64,000 nucleotides of DNA from Parabacteroides faecis (lineage in GTDB: Bacteria > Bacteroidota > Bacteroidia > Bacteroidales > Tannerellaceae), in NCBI RefSeq assembly GCF_014647375.1, contig NZ_BMPB01000005.1, forward strand, positions 124,001 through 188,000, given 5' to 3'. Position numbers and translations under genes: made by a program. The stretch's first letter is position 1. The number at the start of each line of letters is the position of its first letter. Below, piece after piece: positions 12,573-45,157 of the stretch. The notes under the pieces were generated by a model. It was given only the letters and a program-made list of their open reading frames with translations. It was not told where the DNA came from and did no database searches.

Positions 12573-13931
12573 CTACTGGTCTTTCATCTTTTCCAGAATT
12601 TTCGGAAACTGCCAGAAAAACAGCAGCGTGCAGCAGATAGCTGCGGTGGCGTCGGATATGGCTTCTGCAGCATATACACCGGTTACACCCATAAAATGCG
12701 GAAGTATCAGTGCTAACGGGATCAGCAGGATTACCTTGCGGAGCAAAGCGATGAAAATGGATATCCGGGCCTGCCCCAAAGCGACAAACATATTCTGACA
12801 GGCACGCTGTAATCCGAAAATGGTCATGCCACCCAGAAAGACGGGCATTGTCCAGCTGACCGTTTCTATCAACCTTTCGTCGCTTGTAAAAGCTGACGCT
12901 ATTGTGGAAGGGAACACGATCATAAACAGCATCAGAATCAAATTGAAAGAGAACATCGTGATCAGCGCGATACGGAAACATTCTTTCACACGCCGTTTGT
13001 CACCATGGCCGTAATTATAACTGACTATCGGGACGAAACCTTGTGCAAATCCTGTCAGCGGAACACTGGCGAATTGCATCGAGGTTTGCAGAACCGTCAG
13101 GGCACTGACATAAATATCTCCGAACTCTTTCAGGCTGCTGTTCAGTACAAAGCCGACCAGACTCTCGGTGCTTGCCATAATGAACGGAGATATTCCCAGA
13201 GCAAGCATCGCAACCACGATCCCTTTGTCCGGTTTCATATAACGTCTTTCTAAAGGCAAAGAGGCACGTCGGGAAAAAAGAAAGAGCAACACCCATATGG
13301 CGCTGCAAGCCTGTGAAATCACTGTAGCCAAAGCTGCTCCTTTCACCCCCATGTCAAGCCAGAAAATAAAGATCGGATCGAGAATGATATTCAGGAAAGC
13401 ACCGATCAGCACTGAACCCATGGCAATAGCAGGCCGTCCCTGGGCATTGATGAAAGAGTTCAGTCCGGTAGAGATCTCCACAAAGATTGTCCCCAGCAAA
13501 TAAATGGAAAGATAATCGACTGCATATCCCAATGTATGTTCCGAAGCTCCTGTAAAGAGCAGGATGGGTTCCATAAAGGTATAGGCTATGGAAGAGGTCA
13601 AGATGGTGAACAGGATCAGCAGAATAAAACCATTTCCCAATATCTTCCCGGCACGCTGGCGGTCGCCTTGCCCGAGGGCTATCGCAGCCAACGGCGCACC
13701 CCCTCCTCCGACGATCGCCGAGAAAGAAGAGATCAGCACGACGAGGGAGATGGTTACTCCCACGCCTGCCAATGCTTCGGTTCCAATGCCCGGAATATGT
13801 CCGATATAGATACGGTCGACAATGCTGTAAAGCAAGTTGACGAACTGGGCTGCTACAGCCGGGAGTGCCATCCTGAAGACCAACGGCAACATGCGCTCGG
13901 TCCCCAGGCGTTCTTCATATTTATTTACCAT
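12573..13931 (-). CDS. MATE-family multidrug/Na+ antiporter
   Basis: A 452-residue protein with twelve predicted membrane segments in two homologous halves. The first half includes AGVGVTISLVVLISSFSAIVGGGGAPLAAIALGQ, typical of MATE (NorM/MepA-type) exporters, and the second half repeats the pattern. It would export cationic drugs or metabolites in exchange for Na+ or H+. It converges with cstA (20-base gap) and has its own -7 box upstream. The substrate is unknown. Confidence 0.93.
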   Translation of the reverse strand: MVNKYEERLGTERMLPLVFRMALPAVAAQFVNLLYSIVDRIYIGHIPGIGTEALAGVGVTISLVVLISSFSAIVGGGGAPLAAIALGQGDRQRAGKILGNGFILLILFTILTSSIAYTFMEPILLFTGASEHTLGYAVDYLSIYLLGTIFVEISTGLNSFINAQGRPAIAMGSVLIGAFLNIILDPIFIFWLDMGVKGAALATVISQACSAIWVLLFLFSRRASLPLERRYMKPDKGIVVAMLALGISPFIMASTESLVGFVLNSSLKEFGDIYVSALTVLQTSMQFASVPLTGFAQGFVPIVSYNYGHGDKRRVKECFRIALITMFSFNLILMLFMIVFPSTIASAFTSDERLIETVSWTMPVFLGGMTIFGLQRACQNMFVALGQARISIFIALLRKVILLIPLALILPHFMGVTGVYAAEAISDATAAICCTLLFFWQFPKILEKMKDQ

Positions 13932-38099: not shown

Positions 38100-38831
38100 A
38101 TGGAAGAAAAACTGAAAATCTTCTTTTGTGAAGACGACGAAAACCTGGGTATGCTATTAAGAGAATACTTACAGGCTAAAGGTTATGTAACAGATCTTTT
38201 CTCTGATGGAGAAGCAGGTTACAAAGGTTTCACCAAAGGCAAATATGATCTTTGCGTATTAGACGTAATGATGCCGAAAAAAGACGGTTTCACTCTTGCA
38301 CAGGAAATCCGTTCTATAAATCCTGACATTCCAATTATTTTCCTTACTGCCAAGACAATGAAGGAAGATATTCTGGAAGGCTTCAAGATCGGTGCCGACG
38401 ATTATCTGACAAAGCCGTTCAGCATGGAAGAGTTGCTGCTTCGTATCGAAGCGATCCTTCGCCGTGTGAAAGGTAAGAAGATGAAAGACATTCCTTTCTA
38501 TAAGCTTGGTAATTTCTTGTTCGATACCCAGAAGCAAACGCTGGCTATCGGTGACAAGGTAACGAAGCTGACAACGAAAGAATGCGAACTGCTGAGCCTG
38601 CTGTGTGCCCATGCAAATGAAATTCTGGAACGTAACTATGCACTGAAAACTATCTGGGTTGACGACAACTACTTCAATGCCCGTAGTATGGACGTGTATA
38701 TCACCAAACTTCGTAAACTGTTGAAAGATGATCCGGGAATCGAAATCATCAACATCCACGGTAAGGGTTACAAACTGATCACTCCTTCAGGAGAAGAACA
38801 GGCCCGCGAAGAAGGTATCCAGGTACTTTAA
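38100..38831 (+). CDS. rprY: RprY-like OmpR-family response regulator
   Basis: It encodes 243 aa. The receiver domain has acidic residues FCEDDE (11-13), phosphoacceptor D55 in LCVLDVMMPKKDG, T in FLTAK and the lysine in TKPFSMEEL. A winged-helix output domain (residues about 135-235) ends GKGYKLITP. It is co-transcribed with the kinase. In Porphyromonas RprY binds oxidative-stress and sodium-related promoters; targets here are unknown. Confidence 0.92.
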   Translation: MEEKLKIFFCEDDENLGMLLREYLQAKGYVTDLFSDGEAGYKGFTKGKYDLCVLDVMMPKKDGFTLAQEIRSINPDIPIIFLTAKTMKEDILEGFKIGADDYLTKPFSMEELLLRIEAILRRVKGKKMKDIPFYKLGNFLFDTQKQTLAIGDKVTKLTTKECELLSLLCAHANEILERNYALKTIWVDDNYFNARSMDVYITKLRKLLKDDPGIEIINIHGKGYKLITPSGEEQAREEGIQVL

Positions 38832-39035: not shown

Positions 39036-39329
39036 ATGGATAAACTGGAGCGTATGCCTTTCAAGGCGCAAAAACAACTATTCGAGAAGCTGGAGAAGAT
39101 AGCCGGTGTGGCTAATCTGACCAAGGAGGAACGCCAGGAATATGACGAGGCACTCAAAGTGTATCGTGACTGCAAGAATATAGTGGATTATGCGGAGGAG
39201 AAAGGTGAAATCAAAGGAGAAATTAAGGGGATAAAGCGGACTGCCAGGAAAATGAAGGAAACAGGTTCTTCCCTTGAATATATCATGGAATGTACTGGGC
39301 TTTCCGAAGAAGATATCCATAACTTGTAA
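39036..39329 (+). CDS. Stand-alone C-terminal domain of an Rpn/PDDEXK_2-family protein
   Basis: It encodes 97 aa matching only the C-terminal helical part of Rpn (recombination-promoting nuclease / PD-(D/E)XK transposase-like) proteins: LERMPFKAQKQLFEKLEK, LTKEERQEYDEALKVYRDC and the GEIKGEIKG run just before the terminal helices. The nuclease domain is absent and not found upstream. Either it is a remnant or an independently expressed short form like RpnS, an antitoxin that in other bacteria is made from inside the long gene. A -7 box and terminator flank it, favouring expression. Confidence 0.75.
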   Translation: MDKLERMPFKAQKQLFEKLEKIAGVANLTKEERQEYDEALKVYRDCKNIVDYAEEKGEIKGEIKGIKRTARKMKETGSSLEYIMECTGLSEEDIHNL

Positions 39330-39385: not shown

Positions 39386-39625
39386 TTTTTAGAACTCTGA
39401 TATAAGATCATAAATGTTGACTGTGTTTTCCTTTTTCAAATACTTAAAATGGAGCTCAATGACCCTTTTAACATTTGCTCGCTGGGTTTTGGAAAATAGG
39501 TATGCTGATATACAGTATATTAGGATATTTGCGTGTATAAATATTTGTGTCTAAATACTTAAGTATAAATGTATATTAAATATCAGGTTTAAAGGGGAAT
39601 ACGAATTTAAAGTAGTGACAAAAAT

Positions 39626-39810
39626 AAACGTTCCTTTTTTCTAGTCACAAATTTAAGAATTAATATTTACTGAATTGGCATAAACTAAAAAATAATTTAT
39701 CAATGTATATGCTTTCTTATCAACTGAATATGAAATCAAGTACAAAAATAAGTCTTTTTATTACAAAGTCATAAATGACCCGAAAAAATGACTAGAAAAA
39801 AGGAACGTTT
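39626..39810. repeat. 185-bp element bounded by 22-bp inverted repeats
   Basis: The perfect 22-bp arms lie at 39626-39647 (starting AAACGTTCC, ending CTAGTCA) and 39789-39810. The 141 bases between are strongly A/T-rich and non-coding. A further CTAGTCA copy follows at about 39813. No clear target duplication is seen. It resembles a miniature inverted-repeat element, but a long-range hairpin is also possible. It lies in the 570-base gene-free stretch 39330-39898. Confidence 0.65.
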
Positions 39811-39898
39811 TATCTAGTCATTCACTTTTGAAAGACATTCTTTTTTCAAGGCTGAAAGTATTTGAATAGCACTATTATTAATATTAAATTAGAGAATC

Positions 39899-40078
39899 AT
39901 GAACAAGGGATTATTTATTCCGGCTGCAACGGTAAGTCTTACGGAAAGTTCTATTTTCTGTAAGTATGCGGGCAACTTCGGTCGTTTGGGTTGTAACGAT
40001 GGTTACGGTTTTCCCTGCAAAGACTGCAATAAATACTGCGGAAGGAAAGGAAGAGACTCGTATTGTAGTAGCTGTTGA
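39899..40078 (+). CDS. Candidate 59-aa Cys-rich small protein
   Basis: It begins MNKGLFIPAATVSLTESS and its second half is packed with Cys, Gly and basic residues (8 Cys in the last 39 positions), ending YCSSC. I do not recognise it. A competing frame, 39966-40112, would encode 48 aa with a hydrophobic N terminus and the tail VAVEYEAAIKSITK, which also looks protein-like; only one is likely real. An 11-bp hairpin follows both. It could be a secreted or modified peptide, but no processing genes are adjacent. Confidence 0.4.
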   Translation: MNKGLFIPAATVSLTESSIFCKYAGNFGRLGCNDGYGFPCKDCNKYCGRKGRDSYCSSC

Positions 40079-40128
40079 ATACGAAGCCGCTATCAAATCA
40101 ATCACAAAATAAAAATGAAAAAGAAATA

Positions 40129-40408: not shown

Positions 40409-40806
40409 ATGAAAAAAAAATCGAAGCCTCCCAACTGAATGGAGCAATCAGAGAGTTAAAAGAAAAATGTGAAAGAATGGAAGCCGATCTGCATGAAATA
40501 AACAAATGTGCAAGAGCTATTAACCGCTTGCTGGAACATGCCGTATTTGAAGAAGACATGGTGGAGGAAGAGAAGATCTTCTTTTACGGAGAAACAAACG
40601 AATTTATCGAACTCATCATCCCGCTGATCCGCAGCACAAAATGGCGGGTGAACGGGAATCGGATGCAGAAAAAATTTCTCCGATCTATTGATGAAGTCTT
40701 CAAAATTAAGAATGAAAAGACAAAAGACCTTCTTAAATTCGACAGTTTGTATGCTGCCTTGAAAGAGTATTTCGACAGACATTTCCCTGACGATGTTTTT
40801 TCGTAA
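40409..40806 (+). CDS. Unknown helical protein with out-of-frame A9 at its start
   Basis: An uninterrupted frame runs from an ATG at 40477 (109 aa) and is open further upstream to about 40411. The best start, ATG 40409, is followed by nine A and is out of frame by one base: with ten A it would read MKKKIEASQLNGAIRELKEKCERM and join the frame. So this is a frameshifted gene, a phase-variable or slippage-dependent one, or one starting at 40477. The protein is charged and helical (coiled coil at the start); family not recognised. A terminator follows. Confidence 0.5.
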
Positions 40807-40819
40807 AAAAACGAAAAAG

Positions 40820-40851
40820 ACAGGAAGCCAATCAATGGCTTCCTGTACCTT
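40820..40851 (+). terminator. Hairpin after the A9 gene
   Basis: ACAGGAAGCCA (40820-40830) pairs perfectly with TGGCTTCCTGT (40836-40846) around a 5-base loop; a short T-run follows. Confidence 0.7.
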
Positions 40852-40895
40852 TATAACATACCGGATAACCGGAACAATCTCCAAATCGAAACGAT

Positions 40896-43046
40896 ATGAT
40901 CGAAGCAACCGTCTTTACAAACTTCAGGTTTTGCCAGGGAAACAAACCGCTCACGGCTATTGCAGACGAAATCCTTAACGGGAAGTACGAGACAACTATC
41001 AAACTACACCGGGCCGCACTGCATGCCGGTGATCCCGCCACTGCTGAACGGATCAAGAAATCACTCGAAGCATTCACTGTCTCCGCTACCTACCGGAAGA
41101 CGCGCAAGGAACCGGACATGATCGGCTATAACCCGCTCCTGATCCTCGATATTGACAAGCTCGCACCCGAAGCGATTCCTCGCCTTAGGTCGCTTATCAA
41201 TGAAGCTCCCTATACCATTTACAGCTTCCTGAGTCCTGGTGGACAAGGACTGAAAATTATTGCCTGCTCGGCAGTAGATATCGAACAGCTCCCTCAAAAC
41301 CACCGGATCATCTATAATACCGTCAAGGCGTGGTATGAAGAATTGCTCGGTGTGGAGATCGATGCTTCGGGGAGTGACGCCGGGCGACTCTGTTTTGTCT
41401 CCTACGATCCTTTGCTTTATGCCTCTCCCCGTTTTAGTGACTGGCTGCATACCGGAAAAGGGATGCCTGAAGACTTGCCATTGCTCAAGCCTTTGCTGCA
41501 AAAAACGAGAAAAACGGCCAACACCCGCCATGTGGCTAAACAGCTCAGTAATGCCCGGAACCGACTCGACAAACAGGAGAAGTATCAGGATGGCAACCGT
41601 AACAATTATGTTTACCACTATGCCTGCCTGTGTAACCGGATAGGCGTGCCCGAAGAAGTCCTGACCGGTTATTGTACGGAAAACTTCGGCGATCTTTCGG
41701 CAGAGGAACGTTCCAGTGCGATTACGAGTGCCTACAGTCATAGAGAGGAGCACGACACCTTTCCTCTGATAAAAAACGGGAAGAAGGTGGAGCTGATCCG
41801 GGAATATCTGTCCACACATTTCTTTCTGCGTAAAAATGTAGTTCGTAACCTGGTAGAATACCGGGATAAAAGGGCAAAAAGCCACACATACCATCCTGTG
41901 ACCGATTACTGGGAGAATACCGTCTGGTGCAATCTCCAACTCGAAGGAGTCAATTGCAAGATCACTGAATTGAGGTCGGTGATCCATTCCGGATTCAGTA
42001 AAGAATTTGACCCGTTCAAGTTCTATTTCAGTAAATTGCCGTCATGGGATGGCGAAACAGATTATATCGCCCGGCTTGCTTCGACCGTCAGTACCACACG
42101 GCCTGAATACTGGCTGACCTGCCTCCGGAAATGGCTCGTAGCCACTGTGGCCTGTGCCATAGACGAAAAGACGGAGAACCATGCCGTATTGCTGTTGAGT
42201 GGCGGGCAGGGATTGGGTAAAACAACCTGGTGCCGTAATCTGGTACCACCTGAACTGCATCAATATGTCTATTCCGGCAATCTCGATCCTGCCTCGAAAG
42301 ATGCTTCCCTGCTCCTGAGTGACTGTTTCCTGATCCTGCTCGACGAGCTTTCGGGACAAAGCCGCATGGAACTGAACCGCCTGAAAGCAATGATCACGAA
42401 AAACAGTGTACACGAGCGCCGCGCCTATGCGCATAATTCGGAAACATATGAGCGCCGTGCTTCATTTGCCGCTACGGTCAACGACAGCCAGGTGCTGACC
42501 GACCGTACCGGTTCGCGTCGTTTCCTTTGTTTTGAAACAGTCCGGATAGATTATCTTACTCCTGTCGACTACAGCCATATCTATTCGCAGGCACTGGCTT
42601 TGTATAAAGGCGGCTTCAAGTACTGGTTTTCCGATACTGATATTGCAGAGATCAACGATAACAACGAACCTTTTCAGCAGAGCAGTCCGGAGGAGGAATT
42701 GTTCTATACTTTTTTCCGTAAACCCTGCCGTTTCGAGGCTTATTTACAGTTATCCAGCAGTGAAATAATAGCCAAAATAGCTGAAAAGACCCGTATGCCT
42801 ATTACTCAAATCAACGTGGTTAACCTCGGAAAAATGTTGAAAAGGACAGGGTTTGAACATTTTATACGTAACGGGAAACGCTTTTTCAACGTTATAGAAC
42901 TTACGTTCGACGAAGTAAAAGCTGTACAGCTCGGAATCCGTTCGTATGACAATGTAGATGCTCAAGCTGTTGATAATAAAGGAGTGGTTCCTGATGATAA
43001 AACAGATGAAGGGAATGAAAAACCTCAAATTCAATTGCCCTTCTGA
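40896..43046 (+). CDS. Primase-like / VirE-type SF3-helicase-like protein
   Basis: It encodes 716 aa. The N-terminal domain (about residues 60-190) is of the BT4734/VirE_N type and shows primase-like motifs: LILDIDKL (D85, D87), SPGGQGLKI (113-121) and SDAGRLCFVSYDP (D161, R164). The C-terminal half is a VirE/D5-type ATPase: Walker A GGQGLGKTT (436-444), Walker B FLILLDEL (D483, E484) and an arginine-finger region TDRTGSRRF. Such proteins serve replication of phages, plasmids or integrated elements. It has its own leader downstream of a terminator and ends with QLPF. No integrase, capsid or relaxase lies nearby. Confidence 0.87.
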   Translation: MIEATVFTNFRFCQGNKPLTAIADEILNGKYETTIKLHRAALHAGDPATAERIKKSLEAFTVSATYRKTRKEPDMIGYNPLLILDIDKLAPEAIPRLRSLINEAPYTIYSFLSPGGQGLKIIACSAVDIEQLPQNHRIIYNTVKAWYEELLGVEIDASGSDAGRLCFVSYDPLLYASPRFSDWLHTGKGMPEDLPLLKPLLQKTRKTANTRHVAKQLSNARNRLDKQEKYQDGNRNNYVYHYACLCNRIGVPEEVLTGYCTENFGDLSAEERSSAITSAYSHREEHDTFPLIKNGKKVELIREYLSTHFFLRKNVVRNLVEYRDKRAKSHTYHPVTDYWENTVWCNLQLEGVNCKITELRSVIHSGFSKEFDPFKFYFSKLPSWDGETDYIARLASTVSTTRPEYWLTCLRKWLVATVACAIDEKTENHAVLLLSGGQGLGKTTWCRNLVPPELHQYVYSGNLDPASKDASLLLSDCFLILLDELSGQSRMELNRLKAMITKNSVHERRAYAHNSETYERRASFAATVNDSQVLTDRTGSRRFLCFETVRIDYLTPVDYSHIYSQALALYKGGFKYWFSDTDIAEINDNNEPFQQSSPEEELFYTFFRKPCRFEAYLQLSSSEIIAKIAEKTRMPITQINVVNLGKMLKRTGFEHFIRNGKRFFNVIELTFDEVKAVQLGIRSYDNVDAQAVDNKGVVPDDKTDEGNEKPQIQLPF

Positions 43047-43237
43047 GGCTTTCGGGTGGAGAAGGTGGAGGTTGTTTAACGGTTGGCACACTTTCTGTAT
43101 TTATGTTTATATATTACTATCAACAACAACCGAAAGGTCTCCTTATATTTATAAAAGTCGGCCGAAATGTATTTTCATCTTCACCTCCTCCACCTGCTGC
43201 TTCCTCCGGTGATCTCTTCCGATAGTTCCCGACCGAA

Positions 43238-43284
43238 AAAAATCCGTTCCCGACCCATTTATTTTCAGTCGGGAACGGATTTTT
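43238..43284. terminator. Bidirectional terminator between the primase and DUF4248 genes
   Basis: A perfect 17-bp stem (AAAAATCCGTTCCCGAC and complement) with a 13-base loop has A-run and T-run ends on both strands. Confidence 0.85.
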
Positions 43285-43305
43285 GCGTTGATAACTATTC
43301 CTCTT

Positions 43306-43530
43306 TTAAGGTTCTCCCAAATGTTCCACGATACAGATCACCTGTTTGGGGGTGAAACAGCGAATCCCCGGATGATACCCGAGGGTAACCAGTTTTTGTT
43401 TGAGGATGTCGTGATGGTTGATCCAACGCCAGAGCTGCATGACGGCGCCGCGGTGGGAGAGATGGGGATTATATAGCTGGGCGAGTTCGCCGACACCATA
43501 TGCACGGATGACAAATGTTTTCTGTTCCAT
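43306..43530 (-). CDS. DUF4248 small protein
   Basis: It encodes 74 aa from ATG 43530. The sequence MEQKTFVIRAYGVGELAQLY followed by AVMQLWRWINHHDILKQKL and CFTPKQVICIVEHLGEP matches DUF4248, a compact helical family found in Bacteroidota next to VirE-type and HU-like genes. The order of helices suggests a small DNA-binding fold, but that is inference. It is divergent from the HU-like gene and is the only minus-strand gene of the island. Confidence 0.85.
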   Translation of the reverse strand: MEQKTFVIRAYGVGELAQLYNPHLSHRGAVMQLWRWINHHDILKQKLVTLGYHPGIRCFTPKQVICIVEHLGEP

Positions 43531-43723
43531 AGCATTTATTGTTTTACTTCTATAAATGTACATATTAATGATAAGAAAAACAAGGCTTTAGATGGGAATA
43601 AACAAAATAAAATGCTGCTTCGTCACGTCTGCTCACATAGGGCATCGACGAGGCTATCCGGGTGTTGTATCTTTATGATGTAATTAATTGCAAAACAGTT
43701 TTATAACTAAAAACAATCGGATT

Positions 43724-44176
43724 ATGGCAGTACAGTATCACTTGGTTCTCAGAAAGAACATGAGCAAAGAAGTAGAAGAGGGGAAAGAGAAGCTCTATTA
43801 TGCACAGACCCGTGCCACGCGCACCTGTGGTTTCGATGAGCTATGCGACCTGATCGCTGAAAGTTCCACAGCATCCAGCGGTGATGTCAAAGTCGTTCTC
43901 GACCGTATGAATAAGTTTGCCGCGAAAGCACTCGAACGTGGCGAAGTTGTCCAGCTGGGCGAACTCGGCAGCCTTCAGCTGATCATGGGCAGTAAAGGGA
44001 GTGCGACAACGGAGGGTTTTTCCTCGACCTTGCTGAAGAAGGCGCGTTTGTGTTTCCGTCCCGGTACGATTCTGCGAAACACGACGCAGGTGGCTAAAGG
44101 GGAACGTACGACTATCGATGTTACTCCGGTAACACCTCCTACAGGTGGCGGAGGCGACCGTCCTGAAATTGAATAG
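43724..44176 (+). CDS. HU/IHF-like DNA-binding protein
   Basis: It encodes 150 aa from ATG 43724. MAVQYHLVLRKN and FDELCDLIAESSTASSGDVKVVLDRM, then VVQLGELGSLQLIMGSKG, correspond to the HU-like fold of Bacteroidota (HU-family with an extended N terminus). A proline/glycine tail ends the protein. Such proteins bend DNA; in this cassette it is usually the neighbour of a lysozyme or amidase gene. It is followed by the glucosaminidase gene after 23 bases. Confidence 0.87.
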   Translation: MAVQYHLVLRKNMSKEVEEGKEKLYYAQTRATRTCGFDELCDLIAESSTASSGDVKVVLDRMNKFAAKALERGEVVQLGELGSLQLIMGSKGSATTEGFSSTLLKKARLCFRPGTILRNTTQVAKGERTTIDVTPVTPPTGGGGDRPEIE

Positions 44177-44199
44177 TAACACATTAACCCGACTTTCCA

Positions 44200-44715
44200 A
44201 TGGATAAACAATCATTTGTAAAACTGTATCTTCCTGCCGCGCGTATGGCTGGAGATCTGTACCGGATCAATCCGGTCGTCATTCTGGCTCAATCGGCCAT
44301 TGAAACAGGATGGGGCGAGAGCGCGCTGGCACGGCAATACAATAACTTCTTCGGATTAACCGGATATGGTGTCGTAAACACCTACTGGCATGGAGGAAAG
44401 GTTAGCCTTGAAGAGAATGGCCTGTTGTTCAGGCGTTACGACGCACCGGAAAATAGTTTTCTTGATTTTGCACGGCTGATCTCTACCGCTTATCGTCTTG
44501 CCGCCGCAGTCAGTAACTACCCCGCTGCCTATGCTCGTGAAATAGCTTACAGCCGTTATATCAGTGAAGTGAACGGTGATAACCGGGCGGCGTATGAAGA
44601 AATGCTTACAAGGATTGCGCGGAGCCTGATGCCTTTGGTGGAGGAAAGGCTGCGTCAAGAGGGGTTTTGTGAGGAAAGGACGCGCAATGTTGGCCTGTGT
44701 ACAAAGAAACCGTAA
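44200..44715 (+). CDS. Glucosaminidase-domain (GH73-like) peptidoglycan hydrolase without signal peptide
   Basis: It encodes 171 aa. The motif ILAQSAIETGWGESALARQYNNFFGLTG contains the probable catalytic Glu35 and the NNFFG signature of the glucosaminidase/FlgJ family. A Tyr-containing segment (YAREIAYSRYI) follows. There is no signal peptide or membrane anchor, as in phage endolysins, so export would need a holin or lysis. The tail has two Cys. The gene sits between the HU-like gene and a tiny hydrophobic ORF. Confidence 0.87.
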   Translation: MDKQSFVKLYLPAARMAGDLYRINPVVILAQSAIETGWGESALARQYNNFFGLTGYGVVNTYWHGGKVSLEENGLLFRRYDAPENSFLDFARLISTAYRLAAAVSNYPAAYAREIAYSRYISEVNGDNRAAYEEMLTRIARSLMPLVEERLRQEGFCEERTRNVGLCTKKP

Positions 44716-44751
44716 AGGCGGATATTATTTAATCATTTAAAATGAATCAGT

Positions 44752-44841
44752 ATGAGCAAATTAAAATCTGTTTTTGAGTTTATTATGGCGTTGCTGGGAT
44801 TCCTTCTGGATTTCGGAAGGAAAAAAGAGAAGAAGGAATGA
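44752..44841 (+). CDS. 29-aa membrane-type micropeptide
   Basis: It begins MSKLKSVFEFIMALLGFLLD and ends in a very basic tail (FGRKKEKKE). One hydrophobic helix of about 14 residues is followed by clustered Lys/Arg. It is 36 bases after the glucosaminidase gene in the same direction. Small peptides in this position are known in Bacteroidota and some are named smalltalk in protein family databases, as I recall; this one is similar in size and charge, but identity is unproven. It could help release the cytoplasmic hydrolase. Confidence 0.6.
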   Translation: MSKLKSVFEFIMALLGFLLDFGRKKEKKE

Positions 44842-44903
44842 CGGAATTGAAAGTTCCTGTTTCCTGTGCGCATGCTCTGTGATGTAGACCGTATGCGGGA
44901 GAC

Positions 44904-45023
44904 TTTTCAACAAACTAATGGTTTATCAACAAAGTTATCAACAGGTTAATTGATTGATAATATTTATTTTAGATGTTTTGTTAATAAGATATGAACAAAA
45001 GCGCATAACTCTGTTGTGAATAA
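44904..45023. other. Cluster of DnaA-box-like 9-mers around an A/T-rich segment
   Basis: TTTTCAACA (44904-44912), TTATCAACA (44923-44931) and TTATCAACA (44935-44943) are on the plus strand. TTATTCACA, an exact TTWTNCACA box, is on the minus strand at 45015-45023. About 70 bases of A/T-rich DNA lie between. The arrangement is origin-like. Confidence 0.4.
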
Positions 45024-45042
45024 CTTTGGCAGCCTATAAAAA

Positions 45043-45078
45043 GAAAACAGCCTCAGAATAAATCTGAAGCTGTTTTTC
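45043..45078. terminator. Hairpin between the island and tRNA-Lys
   Basis: GAAAACAGC...TCAGA pairs with TCTGA...GCTGTTTTTC across a short loop, with T-runs on both strands. It could end the tRNA transcript on the minus strand. Confidence 0.75.
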
Positions 45079-45084
45079 TTTGAG

Positions 45085-45157
45085 TGATCCGCCTGGGGTT
45101 CGAACCCAGGACCCCATCCTTAAAAGGGATGTGCTCTACCTGCTGAGCTAGCGAATC
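45085..45157 (-). tRNA. tRNA-Lys(TTT)
   Basis: Read on the minus strand the gene starts GATTCGC, which pairs with GCGGATC at the 3' end. It has the D-loop TAGCTCAGCAGGTAGAG, an anticodon stem CATCC/GGATG around CTTTTAA (anticodon TTT) and a T-loop GGTTCGAACCC. CCA is not encoded. Length is 73 bases. It marks the right edge of the accessory island, a common integration site, but I found no duplicated tRNA 3' end. Confidence 0.93.

Follow-up and report, generated by a model that had tools for sequence, protein, structure and literature searches.

The 64,000-nucleotide stretch of Parabacteroides faecis DNA analyzed here (contig NZ_BMPB01000005.1, positions 124,001 to 188,000; "the window" in the following) contains, at about 40.4–44.84 kb and next to a tRNA-Lys gene, a compact gene cassette whose families recur together at many other sites. 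With a probability of roughly 0.4, we read it as a replication-and-lysis cassette which accompanies variable surface-coat loci, represented here by the decayed remains of an S-layer-like gene whose promoter region looks invertible. The plus strand carries orf109 and the genes of a primase/helicase, an HU-HIG protein, a glucosaminidase and a peptide of 29 amino acids; the DUF4248 gene is located between the primase and HU genes on the opposite strand, divergent to the HU gene (Table 1). An earlier description of this DNA, made from the sequence alone (the original prediction), had listed an AEP/VirE-type primase plus SF3-helicase-like protein, a DUF4248 protein, an HU-like protein and a glucosaminidase without visible signal, all of which were confirmed by Pfam matches and inspection by eye. 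The gene orf109, which it did not name, is counted into the set here.

Primase and helicase activities are predicted for the product of the second gene from its families, namely BT4734-like_N (E 7.7e-32; 110.7 bits for the AEP N-terminal part, as compared to a curated Pfam cut-off of 22.4), VapE-like (E 1.2e-34; 120.2 bits versus 25) and DUF3874. The protein moreover matches helicase/primase families of PHROG and the VapE-like PDB entry 7pds (E 1.5e-10), and its translation contains the string GGQGLGKTT, which we take to be a Walker-type motif. The HU-HIG protein reached 94.5 bits against PF18291 (cut-off 26.2), and the ATG at 43724 is probably its start. The glucosaminidase is, by family, a predicted peptidoglycan hydrolase and gives endolysin-type PHROG matches; a signal peptide was not visible by eye (no predictor was run). 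No Pfam match at a threshold of 0.1 was found for orf109. Its AlphaFold2 (AF2) model was weak (pLDDT 57) and that of DUF4248, which is all-helical, was of low confidence (pLDDT 60), both being built from two sequences, and a fold search was dropped because the models were too weak. An ATG upstream of orf109 opens into an A run, out of frame, in both species compared (window 40409–40480; locus L073, 5513–5585; L and G numbers denote loci and genomes), and the relatives of orf109 in L100 and L107 start in frame; descriptively, the start region appears slippage-prone.

Table 1. Features of the cassette and its surroundings (positions in the window).
Feature	Position	Strand	Remarks
Inverted-repeat pair, invertible-promoter-like	39616..39820		32-nt arms 39616–39647 and 39789–39820, 141 nt apart
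DUF6383/S-layer-like surface gene relic	39629..40112	+	Leader and first codons to 39906, C-terminal stub at ~40050–40112
orf109, small conserved protein of unknown fold	40477..40806	+	10 further matches in other cassettes, L073 and L097 being one locus
Predicted AEP primase and VapE/SF3-type helicase (BT4734/BF3469-like)	40896..43046	+	Pfam, PHROG and PDB matches
DUF4248 protein, candidate regulator by position	43306..43563	-	Pfam E 1.5e-24
TATCTTTA, then operator-like palindrome TGTAATTAATTGCA (6/7 pairs)	43668..43692	+	TATCTTTA close to the Bacteroidota −7 consensus
HU-HIG DNA-binding protein	43724..44176	+	Pfam HU-HIG E 6.5e-27, scored on the longer frame from 43688
Glucosaminidase (GH73-like, predicted peptidoglycan hydrolase)	44200..44715	+	Pfam E 2.4e-19; PDB matches to FlgJ and glucosaminidase
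Cationic amphipathic micropeptide, 29 amino acids	44752..44841	+	9 matches including the window (L073 and L097 being one locus), placed after the hydrolase
tRNA-Lys and DnaA-box-like repeats, outside the cassette	44923..45157	-	Found in G022 (L214) without the cassette
tRNA-Lys	45084..45157	-	Adjoins the cassette

Of 39 genomes of the genus, 31 contain DUF4248; the figures are 57 of 101 for genomes sampled from the family of G184 (taken as Bacteroidaceae) and 13 of 198 for an order-wide sample. The genome of P. gordonii yielded 19 DUF4248 matches and the genome analyzed here eight, the latter together with 34 HU-HIG matches, of which 25 score higher than 76 bits. A second class of HU-HIG proteins of about 200 amino acids is also present in this genome (e.g. 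L074, L077 and L078), and neither a hydrolase nor DUF4248 was called beside it. Eighty DUF4248-centred sites were fetched, two of which (L125 and L134) were dropped as no DUF4248 was called; the remaining 78 and the window (n = 79) were tallied against 20 control loci of 18 kb, taken at round coordinates from six of the genomes. Within 5 kb of DUF4248, an HU gene was found at 63 sites, a hydrolase at 48, a primase and/or helicase at 52, and all three at 37, as compared to HU at two of the 20 controls and the other modules at none. The same families thus occur together at many sites, beyond chance.

As judged by Pfam on representatives, the hydrolase slot is filled by a glucosaminidase or by Amidase_2, and the replication slot by AEP-VapE, by AEP together with DUF3987 (function unknown according to Pfam), by DnaB, either alone or accompanied by a DnaG-type primase, or by a Toprim-DnaB fusion; the first two of these types have AEP in common, and the last two DnaB and Toprim domains. 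The occupation of the same slots by unrelated primases and unrelated wall hydrolases suggests that both activities matter, and is our best argument to this effect, but not a measurement. Two proposals of the original prediction agree with these findings: a domesticated replicon fits a replication slot taken by AEP-type or DnaG/Toprim-type primases with varied helicase parts, and a lysis module fits a glucosaminidase/amidase slot with a small amphipathic peptide after it.

A different open reading frame (ORF), of 88–117 amino acids, follows the glucosaminidase gene in L079 (11033–11359), L093 (497–799) and 16 more loci. In its middle part, the +1 frame is more conserved (windowed identity up to 0.77) than the ORF's own frame (0.44 over the same stretch) and is free of stops across 18 sequences (comparison of 19 genes, L141 left out), and the two ends are conserved in the own frame. 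A TTT/TTC-C slip-like site, noticed by eye, precedes the overlapping coding region.

Association of DUF4248 with surface coats was assessed in nine genomes picked for few contigs, with random points set only on site-bearing contigs; excluded were DUF4248 matches that were weak or fragmentary (four, all of G013) and two fragments representing second halves of Bac_transf genes. Within 20 kb of the capsule markers Bac_transf or Poly_export lay 17 of 73 DUF4248 sites, as compared to 4.6 expected (5000 random draws, p 2e-4); the corresponding figures were 9 versus 2.5 within 10 kb (p 0.001) and 19 versus 6.6 within 30 kb. We relied on this test instead of a tally of surface clusters (36/79 versus 0/20), which was set aside because the clusters had been picked after looking. 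Among the families nearest to the cassettes (145 of 150 flanking genes), NusG was found four times, and Bac_transf, CpsB_CapC, Glycos_transf_2, Glyco_transf_25 and YjbH three times each, besides others; they are absent from the control list (145 of 155 genes), each list comprising the top 25 families, with those ranked lower hidden in both. S-layer-like genes are located near 15 of 99 DUF4248 loci, including all three window-type loci of P. gordonii and, in addition, L100, L101 and L107. Annotated 28-kb records provide further examples: a DnaB/CHC2-type cassette lies among glycosyltransferases in P. distasonis (L235), and genes for an amidase, a "smalltalk protein", a DNA-binding protein, DUF4248, DUF3987 and BT4734 stand at the end of a polysaccharide locus in B. 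finegoldii (L236). A record of 3.9 kb (L237) contains DUF4248 and a primase/helicase. The original prediction had missed the enrichment near capsule and S-layer-like loci as well as the S-layer relic that precedes the cassette.

An intact S-layer gene is absent upstream of the window cassette, where only the relic is found. In P. gordonii, by contrast, a gene for an S-layer-like protein of 1210 amino acids is present upstream of the cassette; the protein carries a C-terminal DUF6383, and its end resembles, by eye, the stub of the relic. The leader aligns in blastn to positions 13247–13526 of L097 (window 39629–39906, 70%). The inverted-repeat pair upstream of the relic resembles an invertible promoter in its layout, and its 19-nt core pair also precedes S-layer-like genes in L097 (the same locus as L073), L098, L099 and L101, as well as in L107 with two mismatches. 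L120 and L132 carry the core pair as well, in each case at the far end, and no S-layer-like gene was called there; a weaker form (three mismatches) occurs in L127 and L042, and the pair was found in none of the 20 control loci. Farther upstream, the window encodes a C-terminal fragment of an Rpn/PDDEXK-type nuclease-transposase (39036–39329; under the curated family cut-offs) and a response regulator (38100–38831), the protein of which is 99–100% identical in six of six genomes of the genus examined.

P. gordonii MS-1, the nearest named relative found of this Parabacteroides-like genome, has the identical gene order at the same place, beside the same tRNA-Lys and AI-2E genes, with a primase that is 71% identical; the order is thus not unique to one strain, a possibility that the original prediction had raised against itself. 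Between the two species, the ratio of nonsynonymous to synonymous substitution rates (dN/dS) is lowest for HU (0.065), followed by the peptide (0.078, 28 codons), DUF4248 (0.109) and the primase (0.113), values which are rough because dS is 1.3–1.9; in the glucosaminidase and orf109 genes, saturation of synonymous sites leaves only dN, at 0.11 and 0.23, respectively. At 20 further tRNA-Lys loci of the genus the cassette was not seen, this absence being weak for the four that end less than 2 kb past the tRNA and for L230, which yielded no tRNA. The left flank of these cassette-less sites varies between genomes; in L221 (G016), an S-layer-like stretch (44% over 97 residues) lies about 8 kb from the tRNA. 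Two P. gordonii copies, L098 and L099, are mosaic with respect to each other, the peptide-hydrolase-HU-DUF4248 part being 90% and the primase side 72% identical, with an S-layer leader of 87% identity and an unaligned S-layer body.

The right edge of the cassette lies at about 44920, as homology with the cassette-less genome G022 begins at 44923. It spans the DnaA-like 9-mers (at 44923, 44935, 45023 and elsewhere), the first of which is altered in G022. These boxes, which the original prediction had included in the island as origin-like elements, are indeed present, but belong to the tRNA-Lys neighbourhood; because G022 has them without the cassette, they are not cassette members, and origin boxes were rejected as a part of it. 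A lasting sign change of the GC skew was not seen at the island.

Upstream of the HU gene, TATCTTTA is close to the Bacteroidota −7 consensus TAnnTTTG and is followed by the operator-like palindrome. At the equivalent site of P. gordonii the palindrome has seven of seven pairs, and in both species the promoter-like element falls outside the strict TAnnTTTG pattern. This pattern is present in 58 of 71 HU upstream regions, the 13 others remaining unscored, and a fully palindromic 12-mer lies 2–5 nt past it in 11 of the 58, as compared to 1 of 551 other genes (Fisher p 3e-11); when relaxed to at least five of six pairs, the figures are 15/58 and 47/551 (p 2e-4), for loci that share ancestry. That DUF4248 is the repressor is a guess from its position.

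The interpretation as a replication-and-lysis cassette draws on the shared order of the genes and their recurrence as a set, the exchangeable enzymes in the replication and hydrolase slots, the constraint on the proteins, the enrichment near capsule markers, the S-layer-like neighbours, the mosaic P. gordonii copies, and the lack of packaging and conjugation genes among the neighbouring proteins scanned. From these observations we infer replication, lysis, a trigger and release of DNA. A regulator, perhaps DUF4248, would hold the HU-hydrolase-peptide operon at the palindromic operator; on its release, the primase/helicase would copy local DNA and HU would organise the copies, and the amphipathic peptide might let the signal-less hydrolase reach the wall, leading to lysis and discharge of the local DNA. 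Surface-locus DNA set free in this way could enter relatives by homologous recombination through the conserved flanks, and would therefore need no integrase. Taken to its end, the scheme would amount to self-contained DNA donation, in which a variable surface locus is over-replicated and the host is lysed; capsule and S-layer genes would then pass between relatives through homologous recombination, with no phage, plasmid or integrase involved. We regard this extension as distinctly unlikely. If the cassettes do copy DNA and lyse cells, coat variation would be linked to cell death, which would offer a testable reason for the variability of coat loci. Sites of this kind are numerous in Parabacteroides and its relatives in the gut, and some of them lie beside coats that are met by phages and hosts.

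Several observations weigh against the interpretation as a replication-and-lysis cassette of coat loci. No origin was identified for the cassette. The micropeptide, which the original prediction had described as a cationic membrane peptide, is cationic (charge +3), but amphipathic (moment 0.48) rather than a clear transmembrane segment. Neither a hydrolase nor a primase/helicase was present within 5 kb at 16 of the 79 DUF4248 sites, and these counts, like the others from the 79 sites, are not independent, the loci being related by descent. Beyond 20 kb of both capsule markers lay 56 of the 73 sites, and a window-type set in P. distasonis (L234, also a 28-kb annotated record) stands beside SusD and TonB-receptor genes, not in a polysaccharide locus. 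Long vertical residence is not established, because the proportion of synonymous differences (pS) is higher in the cassette (0.61–0.82) than in the genes next to it, AI-2E (0.60) and S13 (0.58), and because G022 and G024, which by their AI-2E (91–92% identical to that of the window) are as close as P. gordonii (90%), lack the cassette. The mosaicism of L098 and L099 also fits ordinary gene conversion.

The main rival is anti-phage abortive lysis, in which HU-HIG and the primase/helicase would recognise or engage invading DNA and free the hydrolase, so that the cell dies; we consider it rather unlikely. Such a function would suit the many divergent copies of HU-HIG and DUF4248 in the genome, combined with a lysis-type gene, and PADLOC models matched the primase domain (PrimPol, 5e-35; RTasVirE-PriCT2, 1e-34). 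Burroughs, Aravind and colleagues reportedly predicted in 2017 that HU expansions of Bacteroidetes pre-empt invasive DNA. Otherwise, however, PADLOC gave only weak matches, of orf109 to the candidate PDC-S15 (E 0.0051) and of the hydrolase to Cas5d (E 0.0048), and none for DUF4248, HU and the peptide; the 25 top-ranked Pfam families of 145 genes that flank cassettes include no clear defence system, going by the functions we associate with them, and a sensor domain was not found. Phage permissiveness is governed by surface loci, according to the part of PMC12118408 consulted, which would accord with defence genes at such sites. The anti-phage sensing suggested by the original prediction received no direct support in the present analysis. 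If defence were their role, the cassettes would constitute a large family without a worked-out function.

Less likely, and in our view improbable, is a degraded phage, satellite or plasmid remnant that kept a replication and lysis fragment after losing its packaging and integration genes. Adjacency to a tRNA gene, the fact that the cassette was not seen here in any of the 20 further tRNA-Lys loci of the genus, the replication and endolysin-type PHROG matches, and a site occupancy which does not track AI-2E similarity all speak for it. Four of the proteins are constrained, however, and the same modular set recurs with different enzymes at many sites. No integrase, capsid, portal, packaging, relaxase or conjugation genes were found among the 33 non-cassette window proteins scanned, which represent part of the ORFs and were in part searched at cut-offs of 1e-20 and 1e-10; within this scope, the original prediction was right that integrase, capsid, portal and relaxase genes are absent, and the flanking proteins gave no sign of a prophage or conjugative element that might explain the genes. 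The phage satellite it had considered is weakened, as an integrase was not found and the genes look constrained. In 50,697 phage records, there were 6 matches to DUF4248, 3 to HU, 4 (partial) to the glucosaminidase and 407 to the primase, but no matching phage was found: all six DUF4248 matches are unannotated faecal contigs, and two that were inspected (L238 and L239; MT836553 and MT837259), filed as faecal phage, look by eye like polysaccharide loci of bacteria in which cassette genes are present. Among 72,556 plasmid records, DUF4248 had 10 and the glucosaminidase 9 matches, and those inspected seem to be draft-chromosome fragments that were deposited as plasmids. Single-protein scans of viral contigs with the glucosaminidase and DUF4248, which catch close relatives only, gave no confirmed relative.

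Likewise less likely, and the least probable of the three, is a local chromatin or regulation module in which HU and DUF4248 control coat genes, and hydrolase and peptide remodel the wall for coat assembly instead of lysing the cell: loss of the P. gingivalis HU protein PG0121, co-transcribed with the capsule operon, lowers capsule transcription (available text of PMC3969353), and hyperpigmentation and oxidative-stress tolerance result when a P. gingivalis transcript that bears DUF4248 is deleted (available text of PMC6231650). Against this module, PG0121 is described as highly similar to E. coli HU, not HU-HIG (PMC3969353), it is not evident what a primase/helicase would do in assembling a coat, and an export signal is not visible in the hydrolase. 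That DUF4248-bearing transcript lies outside such a cassette, flanked by QueG-type and lyase genes in the portion of PMC6231650 consulted.

In the literature searched, largely without subscription journals, no functional account of the whole set was found. Genes for amidase, DUF3987, DUF4248 and smalltalk proteins of B. thetaiotaomicron appear in the consulted part of PMC10434189 among those changed by iron supply, the p values of many being large, and a potential capsule operon of B. xylanisolvens, which was down-regulated, comprises UpxY, an export protein and an N-acetylmuramoyl-L-alanine amidase (excerpt of PMC12118408). Compared with known systems, the proposed replication-and-lysis cassette resembles the replication/endolysin modules of phages in the PHROG matches of its primase/helicase and hydrolase, but differs from them in that no capsid, terminase or integrase was found nearby and no holin stands out clearly. 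It shares with PG0121 of P. gingivalis an HU-type protein at a surface locus; PG0121, however, is E. coli-like, and a primase, hydrolase or peptide is not mentioned in the available text of PMC3969353. The inverted-repeat promoter and the S-layer-like neighbourhood recall the phase-variable S-layer and capsule loci of Bacteroidales, whereas the surface gene of the window is decayed and its repeat is unlike those quoted in the excerpt of PMC12118408. A further counterpart is provided by the BT4734/BF3469-DUF4248-DNA-binding-hydrolase groups of Bacteroidota, known as annotation: L234, with BT4734/BF3469, DUF4248, DNA-binding and glucosaminidase genes, matches the window in families and arrangement, and L235 and L236 are variants. 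In L236 the hydrolase is an amidase, and a "smalltalk protein" is encoded between it and HU; the window has a glucosaminidase instead, followed by a different peptide.

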